A DNA stretch of 48,589 bases, from positions 1 to 48,589 of the forward strand of contig JAHITK010000006.1 in NCBI GenBank assembly GCA_018817645.1, read 5' to 3'. Under the pieces are notes generated by a model that did not search any database, was not told the origin of the DNA, and worked only from the letters and a program-made list of their open reading frames with translations. Below are positions 9,120 through 43,279 of this stretch, in pieces. Both the position numbers and the translations under genes were made by a program. This DNA comes from Patescibacteria group bacterium (GTDB lineage Bacteria; Patescibacteriota; Minisyncoccia; Minisyncoccales; PEYH01). Each line of letters starts with the position of its first letter. Positions within the stretch are counted from its first letter, which is position 1.

Positions 9120-9845
9120 TTATTTGCTGTTCGTAAGCATTAAAATCTTTTCTAACGCTTGGCTGTAATTTCCATTATTATAATCGGCTTTCGCCTGGCT
9201 GAACAGGTGTGCCTGCTCATCGCTCAAGGTCTGGCTTTCTGTTATGTTTATGAGGTTTTTAACCAATTCTTTGGTGGTATTCTGGATATTCTCTTCAAGC
9301 GCTTCCGCTGTTTTGCTGGAGAGAACGCTCGCCTTGTCTTTTAATTCAGCCATTTCTTCCACATTTTCCTCGTTCGCGCTCAAGGCCCCTACTTTCTTAT
9401 TAATATCTGCGACTGATTCCACAATTTTGGCGGTTTCCGCCGGGTCTTTAGACGCGGAAGGAATAGCGCTCGCCGCCTTGTCTAACATATCTGCCACTTC
9501 CTTTATATCCGCTGGCTTTTTCAAACTATCAAGCTTGGTCTGGGCTAACACCAAATAAGTGGCTGGCGTGTCGTTGGCCGGGATAACTCCCACCTTATTT
9601 CCATTCAATGTCTGTAGATATAAATATGCGGTTATGCCGGCCGCCACGAGCATTACTATAAAAGCAGGGATAGCGATCGGGATTAAGCGGGCTGGCTGGA
9701 AAGAAAACAAAAAGCCACGGCTATGCGCGGTTTCTTCTGGCTGAAAGCTATCCAAAATAAAGGACTTGGTGTCCTCGACCCATTCTCTCTCCGGCTTTAC
9801 TCCTCCTAATGCCTTTAATTGTGCGATAATCTGCTTGTTTTCCAT
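9120..9845 (-). CDS. Putative single-pass membrane anti-sigma-like protein
   Basis: From ATG 9845: MENKQIIAQLKALGGVKPEREWVEDTKSFIL...; one TM (LIPIAIPAFIVMLVAAGITAYLYL); directly downstream of the ECF sigma gene. Confidence 0.65.
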   Translation of the reverse strand: MENKQIIAQLKALGGVKPEREWVEDTKSFILDSFQPEETAHSRGFLFSFQPARLIPIAIPAFIVMLVAAGITAYLYLQTLNGNKVGVIPANDTPATYLVLAQTKLDSLKKPADIKEVADMLDKAASAIPSASKDPAETAKIVESVADINKKVGALSANEENVEEMAELKDKASVLSSKTAEALEENIQNTTKELVKNLINITESQTLSDEQAHLFSQAKADYNNGNYSQALEKILMLTNSK

Positions 9846-10006
9846 TTTTCTTTTCTTTTTTATTTTGCCTTTTGCGTTTTTCGCTTTGCGCTTTACACGA
9901 TATGTATCGGATGATGGATTCTGCGGTATCGGATTTCGGCTTTCTATATAGTAGACGAAGAAACCCGCCAAACGTTACAGTTGAAAGTCAGAACTTGACC
10001 TTATCG

Positions 10007-10118
10007 CCTGTGGATAACTTTCCCCAAAAAATTACGAGGCCGGGCCTCGTAGTGAGAATCCTTATATCTGGCGTGGGTTCCGACGTTTTACGAAAATTAC
10101 GAGGCCCGGCCTCGTAGT
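10007..10118 (+). repeat. Paired-palindrome REP/BIME-like element, copy 1
   Basis: cctgtggataactttccccaaaaaattACGAGGCCGGGCCTCGTagtgagaatcc...ACGAGGCCCGGCCTCGTag; palindromes 10034-10050 and 10099-10115. Confidence 0.95.
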
Positions 10119-10129
10119 GACCTTGTCAG

Positions 10130-10627
10130 CTACCTCGCGCCTTCTTTCAGCTGTTCCATCGCTCTGTGAAGCAATACTCTTGTTGCTCCCTTGGACTTTC
10201 CGAGTATTTTGGCAATCTCGCCAATAGACAACCCGTCCACATAGCGCCAAACAACCACATTCTGATAATCCTCTTTAAGGGCGTTGAGCCCTTGTTTTAC
10301 GATTTCCAAAGCAGCGTCCTGTTTCTCCTGCGCCTCAATAGGCGCGGTCATATCCTCTATTTCTTTAGTGTCCTCAATCGATATTGTCCTCATCTCTTTA
10401 TTGGTCCGGTAAAAATCAATGACTAAATGCCGGGCCGTAGTATAAAGATAAGCTCTTGGATTTTTTATTTTATCTTCCTGCTGAAAACTCTTCCAGGTTT
10501 TCAAAAAGACCTCGGAAGTCAAATCCTCGGCAATCTCCTGGGAACTGACTTTAATAGAAATAAAACGATAGATGCTCTCCACATAGTTATCGTATATCTT
10601 ACTGAATTTTTTTTGCTTTTTATCCAT
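10130..10627 (-). CDS. RNA polymerase sigma-70 family (ECF) factor
   Basis: IYDNYVESIYRFISIKVSSQEIAEDLTSEVFLKTWKSF (region 2) and YVDGLSIGEIAKILGKSKGATRVLLHRAMEQLKE (region 4). Confidence 0.92.
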   Translation of the reverse strand: MDKKQKKFSKIYDNYVESIYRFISIKVSSQEIAEDLTSEVFLKTWKSFQQEDKIKNPRAYLYTTARHLVIDFYRTNKEMRTISIEDTKEIEDMTAPIEAQEKQDAALEIVKQGLNALKEDYQNVVVWRYVDGLSIGEIAKILGKSKGATRVLLHRAMEQLKEGAR

Positions 10628-12045: not shown

Positions 12046-12408
12046 CAAAAAGTCAAAGTTCCCAACTGGAAGTCGGGAACTACTATTTAAGGGGGCAGAA
12101 AATCTCTGCCAAAGAACTGCTTAGCAAAGAACAATAGAATGGCATGCGGGGAGGGCGGCTTATACGGACTTCCCTCCCCTGACTCTTTTTGAGAATCTTT
12201 GTTGCGAACTTAGCCTGTTGCGTTACTCGAGAAAGCCTACTTAAAGCCCTCGCTCGCAGCCGACTCTCTTGCCTGTGGAGTAGCCACTACTTACCGCTCG
12301 AGGGGGAGAAAGCGACTAGCAGAACTCCCGCCTTTAGTCCGTCAACCACGGAGGTTGGAGGTATGCCGTCCCCCCGAAAAAAGGAGGACTGACACAGTTC
12401 TCTTGCTA
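12046..12408 (-). ncRNA. Candidate structured ncRNA 'A', paralogous to the RNA at 13187-13521
   Basis: Minus promoter TTGACA-N16-TACAAT (12442-12415), terminator-like hairpin AGTTCCC/GGGAACT plus T-rich tail at 12081-12046, conserved blocks shared with RNA B. Confidence 0.7.
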
Positions 12409-12414
12409 TTTTCA

Positions 12415-12442
12415 ATTGTACATTCAAATTAACTCCTGTCAA
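12415..12442 (-). promoter_or_regulatory. Sigma70-type promoter for RNA A
   Basis: Minus strand TTGACA (12442-12437), 16-bp spacer, TACAAT (12420-12415). Confidence 0.7.
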
Positions 12443-12460
12443 ATGAATCAACAGATAGGC

Positions 12461-12571
12461 CCTGTGGAAAACTCCCCCTCAAAAATTACGAGGCCGGGCC
12501 TCGTAGTGAGAATCCATTGATTTGACGCGGTTTCCGCCAAATGCAAAAATTACGAGGCCCGGCCTCGTAAT
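12461..12571 (+). repeat. Paired-palindrome REP/BIME-like element, copy 2
   Basis: Palindromes 12488-12504 and 12552-12568; leader cctgtggaaaactcccc. Confidence 0.95.
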
Positions 12572-12666
12572 TACCCCTCATAATTTCCTTAAAATTTCAA
12601 TTTATAAAAAGGTCCGCCTCGCGACTCGCGAACGAAGCGGACACCCAGACACAACGCCCAAAAGAA

Positions 12667-13080
12667 CTAATTCCTGACAGAATTTTCAGCCCCATCAATA
12701 TACTCCACATATATTCTCCGCCTCTCTGCCTCTTTGACCAATCTCTCGTCAAACACTCCGTTAGGAGTGTTGACTATTGAGATGCCTCCTTCTCGGTTTA
12801 AGGCCGCGACCCTGGTAACCAACTGGCCTGGCTCCTCAACCCCGTCAAGCCAAGTTATGGTTGGATAGGGGCGCCAGAGGCCACCATCGCCAACACTTAC
12901 CTCTGCCGTCCTAAGCACCCTTAATCTCCCTATGTTGTCACAAACCACTGAAACCCCCATGGGATAGTTGCAAGCGCAGGGAAGATCTACAGTATCACTT
13001 CTATCAAACCGGAGCGTGATGATTTTATCCGACCTTCCTCTCATTTCGTCCGGCATTGAAAAAATTCTCTTTCCTGGCAT
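12667..13080 (-). CDS. Small hypothetical protein between the two ncRNA candidates
   Basis: 137 aa from ATG 13080 (MPGKRIFSMPDEMRGRSDK...) preceded by AAAGGAGGGAAA. Confidence 0.7.
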   Translation of the reverse strand: MPGKRIFSMPDEMRGRSDKIITLRFDRSDTVDLPCACNYPMGVSVVCDNIGRLRVLRTAEVSVGDGGLWRPYPTITWLDGVEEPGQLVTRVAALNREGGISIVNTPNGVFDERLVKEAERRRIYVEYIDGAENSVRN

Positions 13081-13186
13081 TTTCCCTCCTTTATTTTTAC
13101 GCGGCAAAGATTTAAATAAATCCTGTTTCTAATTTCATCTTACTCACCTATAATTTAAAGTCAACTTTTTGATAAATATATTGCTC

Positions 13187-13521
13187 TAAGAAAGAAACAA
13201 GTCCTCGGCATTGCCAAGGACTCTTCGGGTTAACGGCGAGCGATAATGAATAACGCTCGAAAGGTGCTGGAAAGAACAAACAAAGAACACTGAAAGTGGT
13301 ATGCGGGAGGGGCGGCTTAATAACGGACCACCTCCCTTGCTCTGAGAAGGAGAGCGCAGTGTTTGTCAGTCACTACGCCGGGCTCTTGTCAACGCGTATT
13401 AGCGTTGAGCCCTCAAAGAGCAACCACCGCTCGCGCTTGCCGCTCAGGTGTAAGGAGGTTACCTTGAACCACCTTAGTCCGCAAACCCGTCTGCCAAGGA
13501 GGATAAACAGAACGGTGTCTT
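13187..13521 (-). ncRNA. Candidate structured ncRNA 'B', paralogous to RNA A
   Basis: Minus promoter TTGACA-N16-CATAAT (13555-13528); terminator AGTCCTTGGCaatGCCGAGGACT + TTGTTTCTTTCTT (13222-13187); blocks shared with A. Confidence 0.72.
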
Positions 13522-13527
13522 ATTTTT

Positions 13528-13555
13528 ATTATGCATCTAATTAAAACTTTGTCAA
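13528..13555 (-). promoter_or_regulatory. Sigma70-type promoter for RNA B
   Basis: Minus strand TTGACA (13555-13550), 16-bp spacer, CATAAT (13533-13528). Confidence 0.7.
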
Positions 13556-13591: not shown

Positions 13592-13640
13592 GGTGGAAAA
13601 CTTTCCCCAAAAAATTACCCGCCCCAGGCGGGTAATTTTT
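13592..13640 (+). repeat. REP leader joined to a different palindrome; probably also terminator of the upstream CDS
   Basis: gtggaaaactttccccaaaaaattac, as in REP copy 3, followed by CCGCCCCAGGCGGGtaattttt instead of GAGGCCGGGCCTC. Confidence 0.8.
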
Positions 13641-13686
13641 ACTGCAATGATTATTTATAATATAAACCAACTAATTTAAGAACTTA

Positions 13687-20220: not shown

Positions 20221-20333
20221 ACCTGTGGAAAACTTTCCCCAAAAAATTACGAGGCCGGGCCTCGTAGTGAGAATCCTTATATCTGGCGTGGGTTCCGACG
20301 TTTTACGAAAATTACGAGGCCCGGCCTCGTAAT
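20221..20333 (+). repeat. Paired-palindrome REP/BIME-like element, copy 3 (RAYT 3' flank)
   Basis: Palindromes 20249-20265 and 20314-20330; inter-palindrome spacer identical to copy 1. Confidence 0.95.
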
Positions 20334-21173: not shown

Positions 21174-21309
21174 CCTGTGGAAAACTTTTATCTATATCCG
21201 TCTCGAGCGGCCCCCAAAAAATTACGAGGCCGGGCCTCGTAGTGAGAATCCTTATATCTGACATGGGTTTTCGGCGATAGCAGAAATTACGAGGCCGGGC
21301 CTCGTAATT
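21174..21309 (+). repeat. Paired-palindrome REP/BIME-like element, copy 4 (RAYT 5' flank)
   Basis: Palindromes 21224-21240 and 21289-21305; leader ctgtggaaaactttt with extra sequence. Confidence 0.95.
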
Positions 21310-22008: not shown

Positions 22009-22141
22009 CCCTCTGGATAACTTTTATTTATACCCGCCCCGGTCGGGCCAAAAAATTACGAGGCCGGGCCTCGTAGTGAGAATCCGTTGATTTGACGCGG
22101 TTTCCGCCAAATGCAAAAATTACGAGGCCCGGCCTCGTAAT
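22009..22141 (+). repeat. Paired-palindrome REP/BIME-like element, copy 5
   Basis: Palindromes 22058-22074 and 22122-22138; leader ctctggataacttttatttatacccgccccggtcggg; spacer nearly identical to copy 2. Confidence 0.95.
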
Positions 22142-22185
22142 GACCTCATAATAATAAAAGCCAAAGGGTTAGGAGATAGATTGCT

Positions 22186-26136: not shown

Positions 26137-26250
26137 CCTCTGTGGATAACTTTTCCCAAAAAATTACGAGGCCGGGCCTCGTTGCGACAATCCCTAATAC
26201 TGGCGTGGGTTTCGACGTTTAGCATAAATTACGAGGCCGGGCCTCGTACT
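26137..26250 (+). repeat. Paired-palindrome REP/BIME-like element, copy 6
   Basis: Palindromes 26166-26182 and 26231-26247; leader tgtggataacttttccc. Confidence 0.95.
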
Positions 26251-26262
26251 GTTGTTTTGCGT

Positions 26263-42011: not shown

Positions 42012-42178
42012 TCTTGTGGAAAACTTTTACTTAACCCGCCCAAGGCGGGCTTGCCCGCCTTGGGCGAACCACTAAAAAATTACCAGGAAAAATTACGAGG
42101 CCGGGCCTCGTAGTGAGAATCCTCAATACTGGTGTGGCTTCCGACGTTTAACAGAAATTACGAGGCCGGGCCTCGTAA
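42012..42178 (+). repeat. Paired-palindrome REP/BIME-like element, copy 7, with an extra nested palindrome
   Basis: Palindromes 42095-42111 and 42160-42176; insertion CCCGCCCAAGGCGGGCttGCCCGCCTTGGGCG between leader and first palindrome. Confidence 0.92.
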
Positions 42179-43279
42179 TGGCAGATACATTTGGAAAAGT
42201 TTGTTAAAAACTTTTTCCCAGGCAAAATTTTTGGAAAATTCCAAAGATGCACTCCTTATTCTTTCCCTAATCTCCGCCTCGTCTAACAAGATATTCACTT
42301 TCTGAAAAATATCCGGCGCCTCTTTTGGCCTGGTCAAAAAGCCGTTTTCTCCGTCTTTTACCAGCGATTTTGAACCGCCGGCATCAGCCACCACTGGAAC
42401 AAGCCCGGAGGCCATGGCTTCAATGGTGACATTCCCGAATGTCTCTGTGGTTGACGGAAAAACGAATATATCTGAAGAAGCGTATGCCTGCGAAAGTTCA
42501 ATTCCTTCAATATGGCCAAGGAAGATGACACCGGGCATAAGTTGCTCTAATTCTTTGCGCACCGGCCCTTCGCCCGCAACGACCATTACAAAATCATTCC
42601 TTTTTGCCTTTAATAATTTGTATGCTTCCGCTAAAGTACGCAGGTCTTTCTCCCAAGTAAGGCGACAAACGCACAATAAAATTAATTTATTTTCATTTTG
42701 AATAATTTTTTGTCTCCAATCTGGCGAACGGAAAGAAATGTCAAAATTGACAAAATCCACTCCCCAAGGAATGGTTAGGACATTTGGTATCCGATGGTCA
42801 ATAAGTTCCTGCGCCATAACTTGCGAAGGGGTGGTGGTAAAACTCATCTGTTTATACAACCTCCTCAACAAAAACCAAGCGAATGGTCTAAGAAAACCGA
42901 GATTATAGTAGACGAAATATTTACAAAAATCGGTATTATGAGTGGCGACAATCGGAATACGGCGTCTCTTGGCGTATTTTAAAGCGGACCAGGCAATAGT
43001 ATCCGGACTGTGAAGGTGGATGATGTCCGGCTTAAATTCGTCCAGTTGCTTTTGAAACTTCCTGGTGCCGGGCAAAGAAAGACGATAAGCCCTATAAAGC
43101 GGGAATACTATTGAAGGAATCTTGATAACCGGGACCGGAGACAGAGAAACATCCTCTGCCCAGCCAGTAATAATAATGGATTGGACGCCTTTTTTAAGGC
43201 CTTCATTTATAAGAGATAAAAGCACGCGGGTCACGCCGTCTTCTTTTTTGAGAGTGCCGATAAAATAAGCGATTTTCAT
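42158..43279 (-). CDS. Glycosyltransferase family 4 protein
   Basis: MKIAYFIGTLKKEDGVTRVL, IHLHSPDTIAWSALKYAK, FPSTTETFGNVTIEAMASGLVPVVADAGG; C-terminal PLRGPAS* is encoded by REP copy 7. Confidence 0.9.
   Translation of the reverse strand: MKIAYFIGTLKKEDGVTRVLLSLINEGLKKGVQSIIITGWAEDVSLSPVPVIKIPSIVFPLYRAYRLSLPGTRKFQKQLDEFKPDIIHLHSPDTIAWSALKYAKRRRIPIVATHNTDFCKYFVYYNLGFLRPFAWFLLRRLYKQMSFTTTPSQVMAQELIDHRIPNVLTIPWGVDFVNFDISFRSPDWRQKIIQNENKLILLCVCRLTWEKDLRTLAEAYKLLKAKRNDFVMVVAGEGPVRKELEQLMPGVIFLGHIEGIELSQAYASSDIFVFPSTTETFGNVTIEAMASGLVPVVADAGGSKSLVKDGENGFLTRPKEAPDIFQKVNILLDEAEIRERIRSASLEFSKNFAWEKVFNKLFQMYLPLRGPAS

Follow-up and report, generated by a model that had tools for sequence, protein, structure and literature searches.

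Two stretches of DNA, A and B, lie on the minus strand of this contig from a Patescibacteria bacterium, and the question they raise is whether they are genes for structured RNAs and, if so, of what kind. The window analysed here is the whole stretch of 48,589 nt. A preliminary description had interpreted A and B as paralogous structured RNAs flanking a small gene, each with its own promoter and terminal hairpin, and possibly as an undescribed multi-copy RNA class.

To answer this we examined the architecture of the two units (Table 1). Both promoters, TTGACA-N16-(T/C)A(C/T)AAT as described, match the sigma-70 consensus at 11 of 12 positions and are the top two among seven promoter-like sites of the region (2.2 expected), and both terminal hairpins were recovered as 11-pair stems (12081-12057 and 13223-13199). 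The GC content of A (51%) and B (52%) exceeds that of the genome (41%), and neither RNA, at ~350 nt each, contains an open frame of note. Each has one ATG, which as sole evidence for a non-coding nature would be weak, given that at most one ATG is also found in 14% of GC-matched genomic windows. A genome-wide scan for units with a strong promoter, a terminator within ~500 nt, no ORF of at least 50 codons and at least 44% GC returned only A, B, the RNase P RNA and one ~180-nt RNA upstream of rpsO. As they were retrieved beside RNase P, A and B are built like the known housekeeping RNA gene of this genome; the RNase P RNA (RF00010) likewise has a TTGACN-16-TATAAT promoter, a length of ~350 nt, 54% GC and its own terminator.

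A and B are also related to each other, as had been proposed. Their local alignment score is 153.5, while 1000 dinucleotide shuffles give a mean of 85.4, a standard deviation of 8.8 and a maximum of 122 (z ~7.7); no other stretch of the window exceeds 110, and B in reverse complement scores 86.5. Identity is 57% over the aligned columns of an anchored alignment, and identical columns cluster in four runs of at least seven where 0.9 are expected by permutation (P = 0.003), which is as expected if the blocks are under selection within otherwise diverged sequence. All of the blocks listed in the preliminary description are present in both RNAs, in the same order and on the minus strand, but one assignment had to be changed: GAGCGG occurs twice in B, and the copy that aligns with CGAGCGGTAAG of A is TGAGCGGCAAG (13445-13436) and not CGAGCGGT at ~13433.

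Both RNAs fold more stably than shuffled sequences, with z = -3.75 for A and -4.26 for B, which bears out their description as structured. A common fold, derived by hand and then enforced on the two sequences, costs 1.6 kcal/mol in A and 0.8 kcal/mol in B above the minimum free energy. From 5' to 3' it comprises a hairpin holding TCCTCCTT, the block CGGACUAA, a hairpin termed P2 and a closing helix, in which GAGCGGYAAG...GUGGY pairs with RCCA...UUUGYU...GUUC and which encloses a variable arm (P4) and hairpin P3; overall, the fold has a three-way junction in addition to the closing helix and two hairpins. RNAalifold, given a block-anchored alignment of the two sequences, recovers P3 and the closing helix unaided. 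Of 200 column shuffles, 195 do worse than the consensus fold and 5 match its energy, while the covariance term, calculated from only two sequences, is no better than in these shuffles; thus, the support for the consensus fold is mostly thermodynamic. Four compensatory positions were identified in all, by eye or by computation. In P3 the changes are G-C/A-U and A-U/G-C, in the closing helix C-G is replaced by U-A, with the CGCATGCCA/CGCATACCA difference of the preliminary description matched by GUGGC/GUGGU, and P2 also shows compensatory differences between A and B. Complementarity links the GUCCGU sequence in the P3 loop to the CGGACUAA block upstream, so that the model makes a pseudoknot or loop-loop contact likely, either within one molecule or between two; by our own estimate, such complementarity could arise by chance at the few-per-cent level. 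Collectively, the promoter, the ~350 nt of GC-rich non-coding sequence, the terminator, the blocks shared in order and a fold common to the two RNAs and near-optimal in each lead us to read A and B as non-coding RNA genes.

Table 1 Features of the A/B locus (window coordinates; structural elements are predicted)
Feature	Coordinates	Strand	Details
RNA A, predicted transcript	12046-12408	minus	~363 nt; promoter, terminator, single ATG, homology to B, fold stability
RNA B, predicted transcript	13187-13521	minus	~335 nt; promoter, terminator, single ATG, homology to A, fold stability
Promoter of A	12415-12442	minus	TTGACA-16-TACAAT; sigma-70 consensus match
Promoter of B	13528-13555	minus	TTGACA-16-CATAAT; sigma-70 consensus match
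Intrinsic terminator of A	12057-12081	minus	stem followed by T tract
Intrinsic terminator of B	13199-13223	minus	stem followed by T tract
A: shared 5' block TCCTCCTT, paired	12381-12388	minus	alignment; mean unpaired probability 0.14
B: shared 5' block TCCTCCTT, in hairpin loop	13496-13503	minus	mean unpaired probability 0.96
A: proposed pseudoknot strand CGGACTAA	12334-12341	minus	7 bp ACGGACU/AGUCCGU with P3 loop, -9.5 kcal/mol
B: proposed pseudoknot strand CGGACTAA	13474-13481	minus	8 bp GCGGACUA/UGGUCCGU (two G-U) with P3 loop, -10.8 kcal/mol
A: hairpin P2 (AGG-C-GGGAG / CTCCC-CCT)	12301-12333	minus	pair probabilities ~0.95
B: hairpin P2 (AGGUG / CACCU)	13446-13474	minus	pair probabilities ~0.4; position as in A, other sequence
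A: closing helix 5' strand, GAGCGGUAAG...GUGGC	12283-12299	minus	pairs with GCCA...UUUGCU...GUUC (two-sequence consensus)
B: closing helix 5' strand, GAGCGGCAAG...GUGGU	13423-13445	minus	pairs with ACCA...UUUGUU...GUUC; C-G to U-A relative to A
A: hairpin P3, loop GUCCGUAUAAGCCG	12148-12179	minus	pair probability ~1.0; two compensatory changes relative to B
B: hairpin P3, loop GUCCGUUAUUAAGCCG	13305-13336	minus	pair probability ~1.0
A: 3' conserved tail GCATGCCA...GTTCTTTG...GTTCTTTG, closing helix 3' strand	12110-12147	minus	alignment and consensus fold
B: 3' conserved tail GCATACCA...GTTCTTTG...GTTCTTT, closing helix 3' strand	13266-13304	minus	alignment and consensus fold
137-aa ORF between A and B	12667-13080	minus	own promoter at 13164-13137; ortholog in G001 with 52% identity; relatives in G073, G099 and G124

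The preliminary description had not been able to match A and B to tmRNA, RNase P, SRP or 6S RNA, and the Rfam scan it proposed agrees: with Rfam 15 (4227 families) there was no match at the gathering score in the window, and no credible match in the A/B region at E ≤ 10. Scanned in pieces, the whole 665-kb genome yielded RNase P (contig C10), tmRNA (contig C1), 16S, 5S and the 3' end of 23S rRNA, tRNAs, group I introns and an L10 leader, and no SRP or 6S RNA at the cut-off. Because the RNase P and tmRNA genes are located elsewhere, A and B are not unrecognised versions of either. Specifically, neither matches RF00010, the RNase P RNA of this genome lying at G000:C10:21582-21906. RNase P RNA is a pseudoknotted catalytic RNA, and a pseudoknot is also proposed for A and B, but their alignment to it scores 88 against a background of ~85, which is no better than shuffles. 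The genome's tmRNA (RF00023; L234, G000:C1, 7674-8052) resembles A and B in belonging to a class of ~350-380 nt RNAs with pseudoknots; the tRNA-like domain is missing from A and B, for which ARAGORN and RF00023 were both negative. Neither the SRP RNA nor the 6S RNA model is matched at the gathering score or at E ≤ 10. Like A and B, 6S RNA (RF00013) is a stand-alone RNA with a promoter and terminator, but a better candidate for it is the long-hairpin RNA upstream of rpsO, which gives no alignment with A or B. That unit, on the plus strand at ~896-1090 of L231 (G000:C1) and ~2950-3150 of L363 (G001:C4), is equipped with a promoter and a terminator of its own, contains a long interrupted hairpin and is conserved in this genome (G000) and in a second genome of the same genus (G001). 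Not detected by Rfam and unrelated to A/B, it is a plausible candidate for a 6S RNA or an S15 leader. A further unit in G001, on the minus strand of L360 (G001:C1) from 15634, combines a strong promoter with ~220 nt of structured, non-coding DNA that is unrelated in sequence to A/B.

We also considered group I and group II introns; no Rfam intron core is matched by A or B, which have their own promoters and terminators, and the introns of this genome are found elsewhere. Two of these are group I introns (RF00028), at 9410-9604 of L249 (G000:C26) and 1330-1750 of L247 (G000:C24), one at a contig end and one adjoining tRNA genes. The ornate RNAs raiA/ModT, OLE, GOLLD, ROOL and HEARO are structured and non-coding, and several have loop-loop contacts (PMC12286853, PMC11706538). 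All five are stand-alone RNAs with Rfam models, none of which A or B matches at E ≤ 10, and they recur across many species, whereas A and B do not. As they match no catalogued RNA family and turned up in none of the other genomes searched, A and B are probably real and new.

The distribution of the pair proved to be narrow. In its own genome, nhmmer with A and B found only A and B. Of two covariance models, R1 covers the 3' domain (72 positions) and R2 runs from CGGACUAA to the 3' tail with the variable arm shortened (156 positions). In scans of 247 order-level and 379 phylum-level genomes, R1 gave no credible match: its weak matches in order and phylum had E 0.003-0.1, of which those in the order lacked the conserved loop and upstream blocks on inspection, and the single one in the phylum (24.9 bits) was rejected on its score and by R2. 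R2 retrieved only A and B, with none in 383 class, 246 order and 262 phylum genomes or in the nine closest relatives; the genome sets of the three ranks overlap, and the large scans use stricter filters. The loop pattern GTCCGTN{1,5}AAGCCGC, sought in 196 relatives, gave five matches outside A/B, none accompanied by the other blocks, and a three-block pattern gave 31 in the contig sets of 84,980 genomes, all by chance and many of them at one coding-like Psychrobacter site. Pattern searches of viral contigs and blastn searches of phages and plasmids returned chance matches only, and a viral-contig match in L358 (24.6 bits) was rejected because it lies antisense to a YqaJ-like exonuclease gene (MTEQIQQRTPEWYAAR).

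In 654 kb of G001, which is the closest relative, nhmmer revealed no trace of A or B. The locus there is collinear, with the giant surface protein, the 137-aa ORF and the 193-aa gene all present, while the stretches bearing A and B are missing and a dehydrogenase gene and repeats stand in upstream. Hence the pair was either gained in this lineage or lost in G001. The evidence does not establish the multi-copy RNA class of the preliminary description, as a single genome has the only two copies and none of the collections searched, CPR genomes among them, yielded a homologue. A and B are an orphan pair, and to speak of a class goes too far and would need homologues. For a large structured RNA of conserved role, the combination of no homologue and absence from a same-genus genome is unusual.

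This distribution bears on one of the two leading alternatives, that A and B represent copies of an RNA element that is selfish or of recent arrival, from a plasmid or phage for instance; it would have come to this locus with the repeat-rich insertions and may have no host function. Their absence from the syntenic site in G001, where the dehydrogenase gene sits as other cargo, and from close kin would fit such an origin, as would the copies of a genus-wide palindromic repeat that sit directly upstream of both promoters. However, nothing similar was found among phages, plasmids or viral contigs, and the copies are strongly diverged and yet keep their blocks and fold, which points to selection after duplication rather than recent insertion. 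We therefore regard this explanation as unlikely. The palindromic repeat itself is present in the window at 12482-12574, 13610-13655, 20222-20331, 21212-21306, 22051-22152, 26140-26251 and 42088-42180. It takes the form (C)GAGGCC..GGCCTC(G)TAATTTTT or CCCGCC..GGCGGGTAATTTTT, with dozens of copies in G000-G003, some followed by GGGGAAAGTTWTCCACAGG with the DnaA-box-like TTATCCACA.

The other leading alternative, which we hold to be unlikely to a similar degree, is a role in cis, with A and B as long leaders or attenuators in which regulated read-through of the terminator would control the downstream genes. Each RNA ends in a terminator and lies on the same strand as a downstream conserved gene, ~95-110 nt upstream of its start codon. 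A is followed by genes for a 193-aa protein, an HTH protein and an ECF-type sigma factor, and B by the 137-aa ORF. The two downstream genes are unrelated, yet A and B are paralogous, and G001 has both genes without A or B. Moreover, a separate promoter for the 137-aa ORF (TTGACT-16-TAAGAT) is retained behind B and conserved in G001. The ORF itself, noted in the preliminary description, is a genuine gene as judged by its same-genus ortholog and its relatives in three other genomes. There is no A/B-like RNA in G001, nor beside the ORF in G073, G099 or G124, and since the ORF occurs in relatives without the RNAs, these are not tied to it; together with the promoter behind B, this makes a cis-leader role less likely than action in trans. 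The family of the ORF is uncharacterised, with members of 125-138 aa that share RG..K..LRFD...L.C.C.Y....YPS.TWLDGVE and occur sporadically in the order (relatives L202, L260, L261, L262); it has no Pfam, NCBIfam or PHROGs match.

The shared 5' block suggests a further possibility. TCCTCCTT is identical to the canonical anti-Shine-Dalgarno sequence, and C-rich-loop sRNAs of the Listeria LhrC and Staphylococcus RsaE type occur as paralogous copies with a CU-rich block able to bind Shine-Dalgarno sites. A and B could accordingly be sRNAs in which this block binds AAGGAGG ribosome-binding sites in trans and the remainder is a stabilising scaffold. The block is exactly common to both RNAs and open in the loop of B, and ~20-30 ORFs, the 137-aa ORF among them, have AAGGAGG-type sites, a 2-4 fold excess over permuted controls. 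In A, however, the block is sequestered in a stem, most genes of the genome are without an AAGGAGG-type site, and duplex scoring with the B loop ranks the neighbouring genes only 26 and 232 of 592, with reversed controls scoring similarly. Hybridisation scores in the search for antisense targets lifted no neighbours or gene set above controls. Compared with LhrC- and RsaE-type sRNAs, A and B have a much larger, folded core, a block that is closed in A and no target signal, and we consider this reading doubtful, more so than either of the preceding two.

An incidental finding on the 16S rRNA gene adds some interest to this idea. The sole copy ends GATCACACAATC where GATCACCTCCTT is expected; its 3' end reads ...GGAAGCTGTCCGTAGATCACACAATC, with helix 45 intact and no CCTCC anti-Shine-Dalgarno (L222, G000:C22, minus strand, reverse-complement ~10513-10560). 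The gene is interrupted, near E. coli position 1390, by an intron at ~9560-10420 of the same contig (minus strand), which has group II-like features and sub-threshold domain matches to RF01998 and RF00029, and contains a 139-aa ORF that we take to resemble a LAGLIDADG endonuclease; a further short intron may follow GATCAC. Gene starts show no general Shine-Dalgarno signal across the genome, with a minority having strong AAGGAGG sites. It seems very improbable to us that A and B, as stand-alone pseudoknotted RNAs of a new class, supply an anti-Shine-Dalgarno (TCCTCCTT) where the genome's own 16S rRNA seems to be without one, and help to translate or repress the few mRNAs that retain AAGGAGG sites. 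The RNA upstream of rpsO and a G001 RNA both have CCTCCTT near the 5' end, and neither is homologous to A or B. Finally, GC-rich stretches fold well by chance and we have two examples only, but there is scarcely any likelihood that the similarity and structure of A and B are accidental or that the region is a decayed remnant of coding or known RNA sequence, as the alignment, clustering and folding statistics all lie beyond controls, there are two independent strong promoter-terminator pairs, and neither Rfam similarity nor an open frame of note is present.

We thus favour, with a probability of roughly 0.55, the reading of A and B as a paralogous pair of structured non-coding RNA genes that stand alone, are predicted to be independently transcribed, would have a pseudoknotted core, probably act in trans and belong to a family so far seen only here. 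They are ordinary in gene architecture and restricted to one genome so far. In this model each RNA would fold into a compact core made up of CGGACUAA, hairpin P2 and the long closing helix enclosing the junction of the variable arm and P3, with the GUCCGU loop of P3 docking on CGGAC as a pseudoknot. More tentatively, the core may serve a structural or regulatory role, probably with a protein or another RNA as its binding partner; action in trans is suggested by the possession of a promoter and terminator, as for RNase P, and by the lack of a tie to a particular downstream gene.

Stand-alone folded RNAs of ~350 nt are rare in bacteria, and the known ones (RNase P, tmRNA, OLE, raiA) have been found to act as ribozymes, as scaffolds or as central regulators. 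In a ~0.67 Mb genome that keeps little that is dispensable, a paralogous RNA pair is a reasonable candidate for an as yet undescribed function. As only one lineage has the pair and relatives that share the locus are without it, its gain or loss would be directly open to study once more genomes are found.
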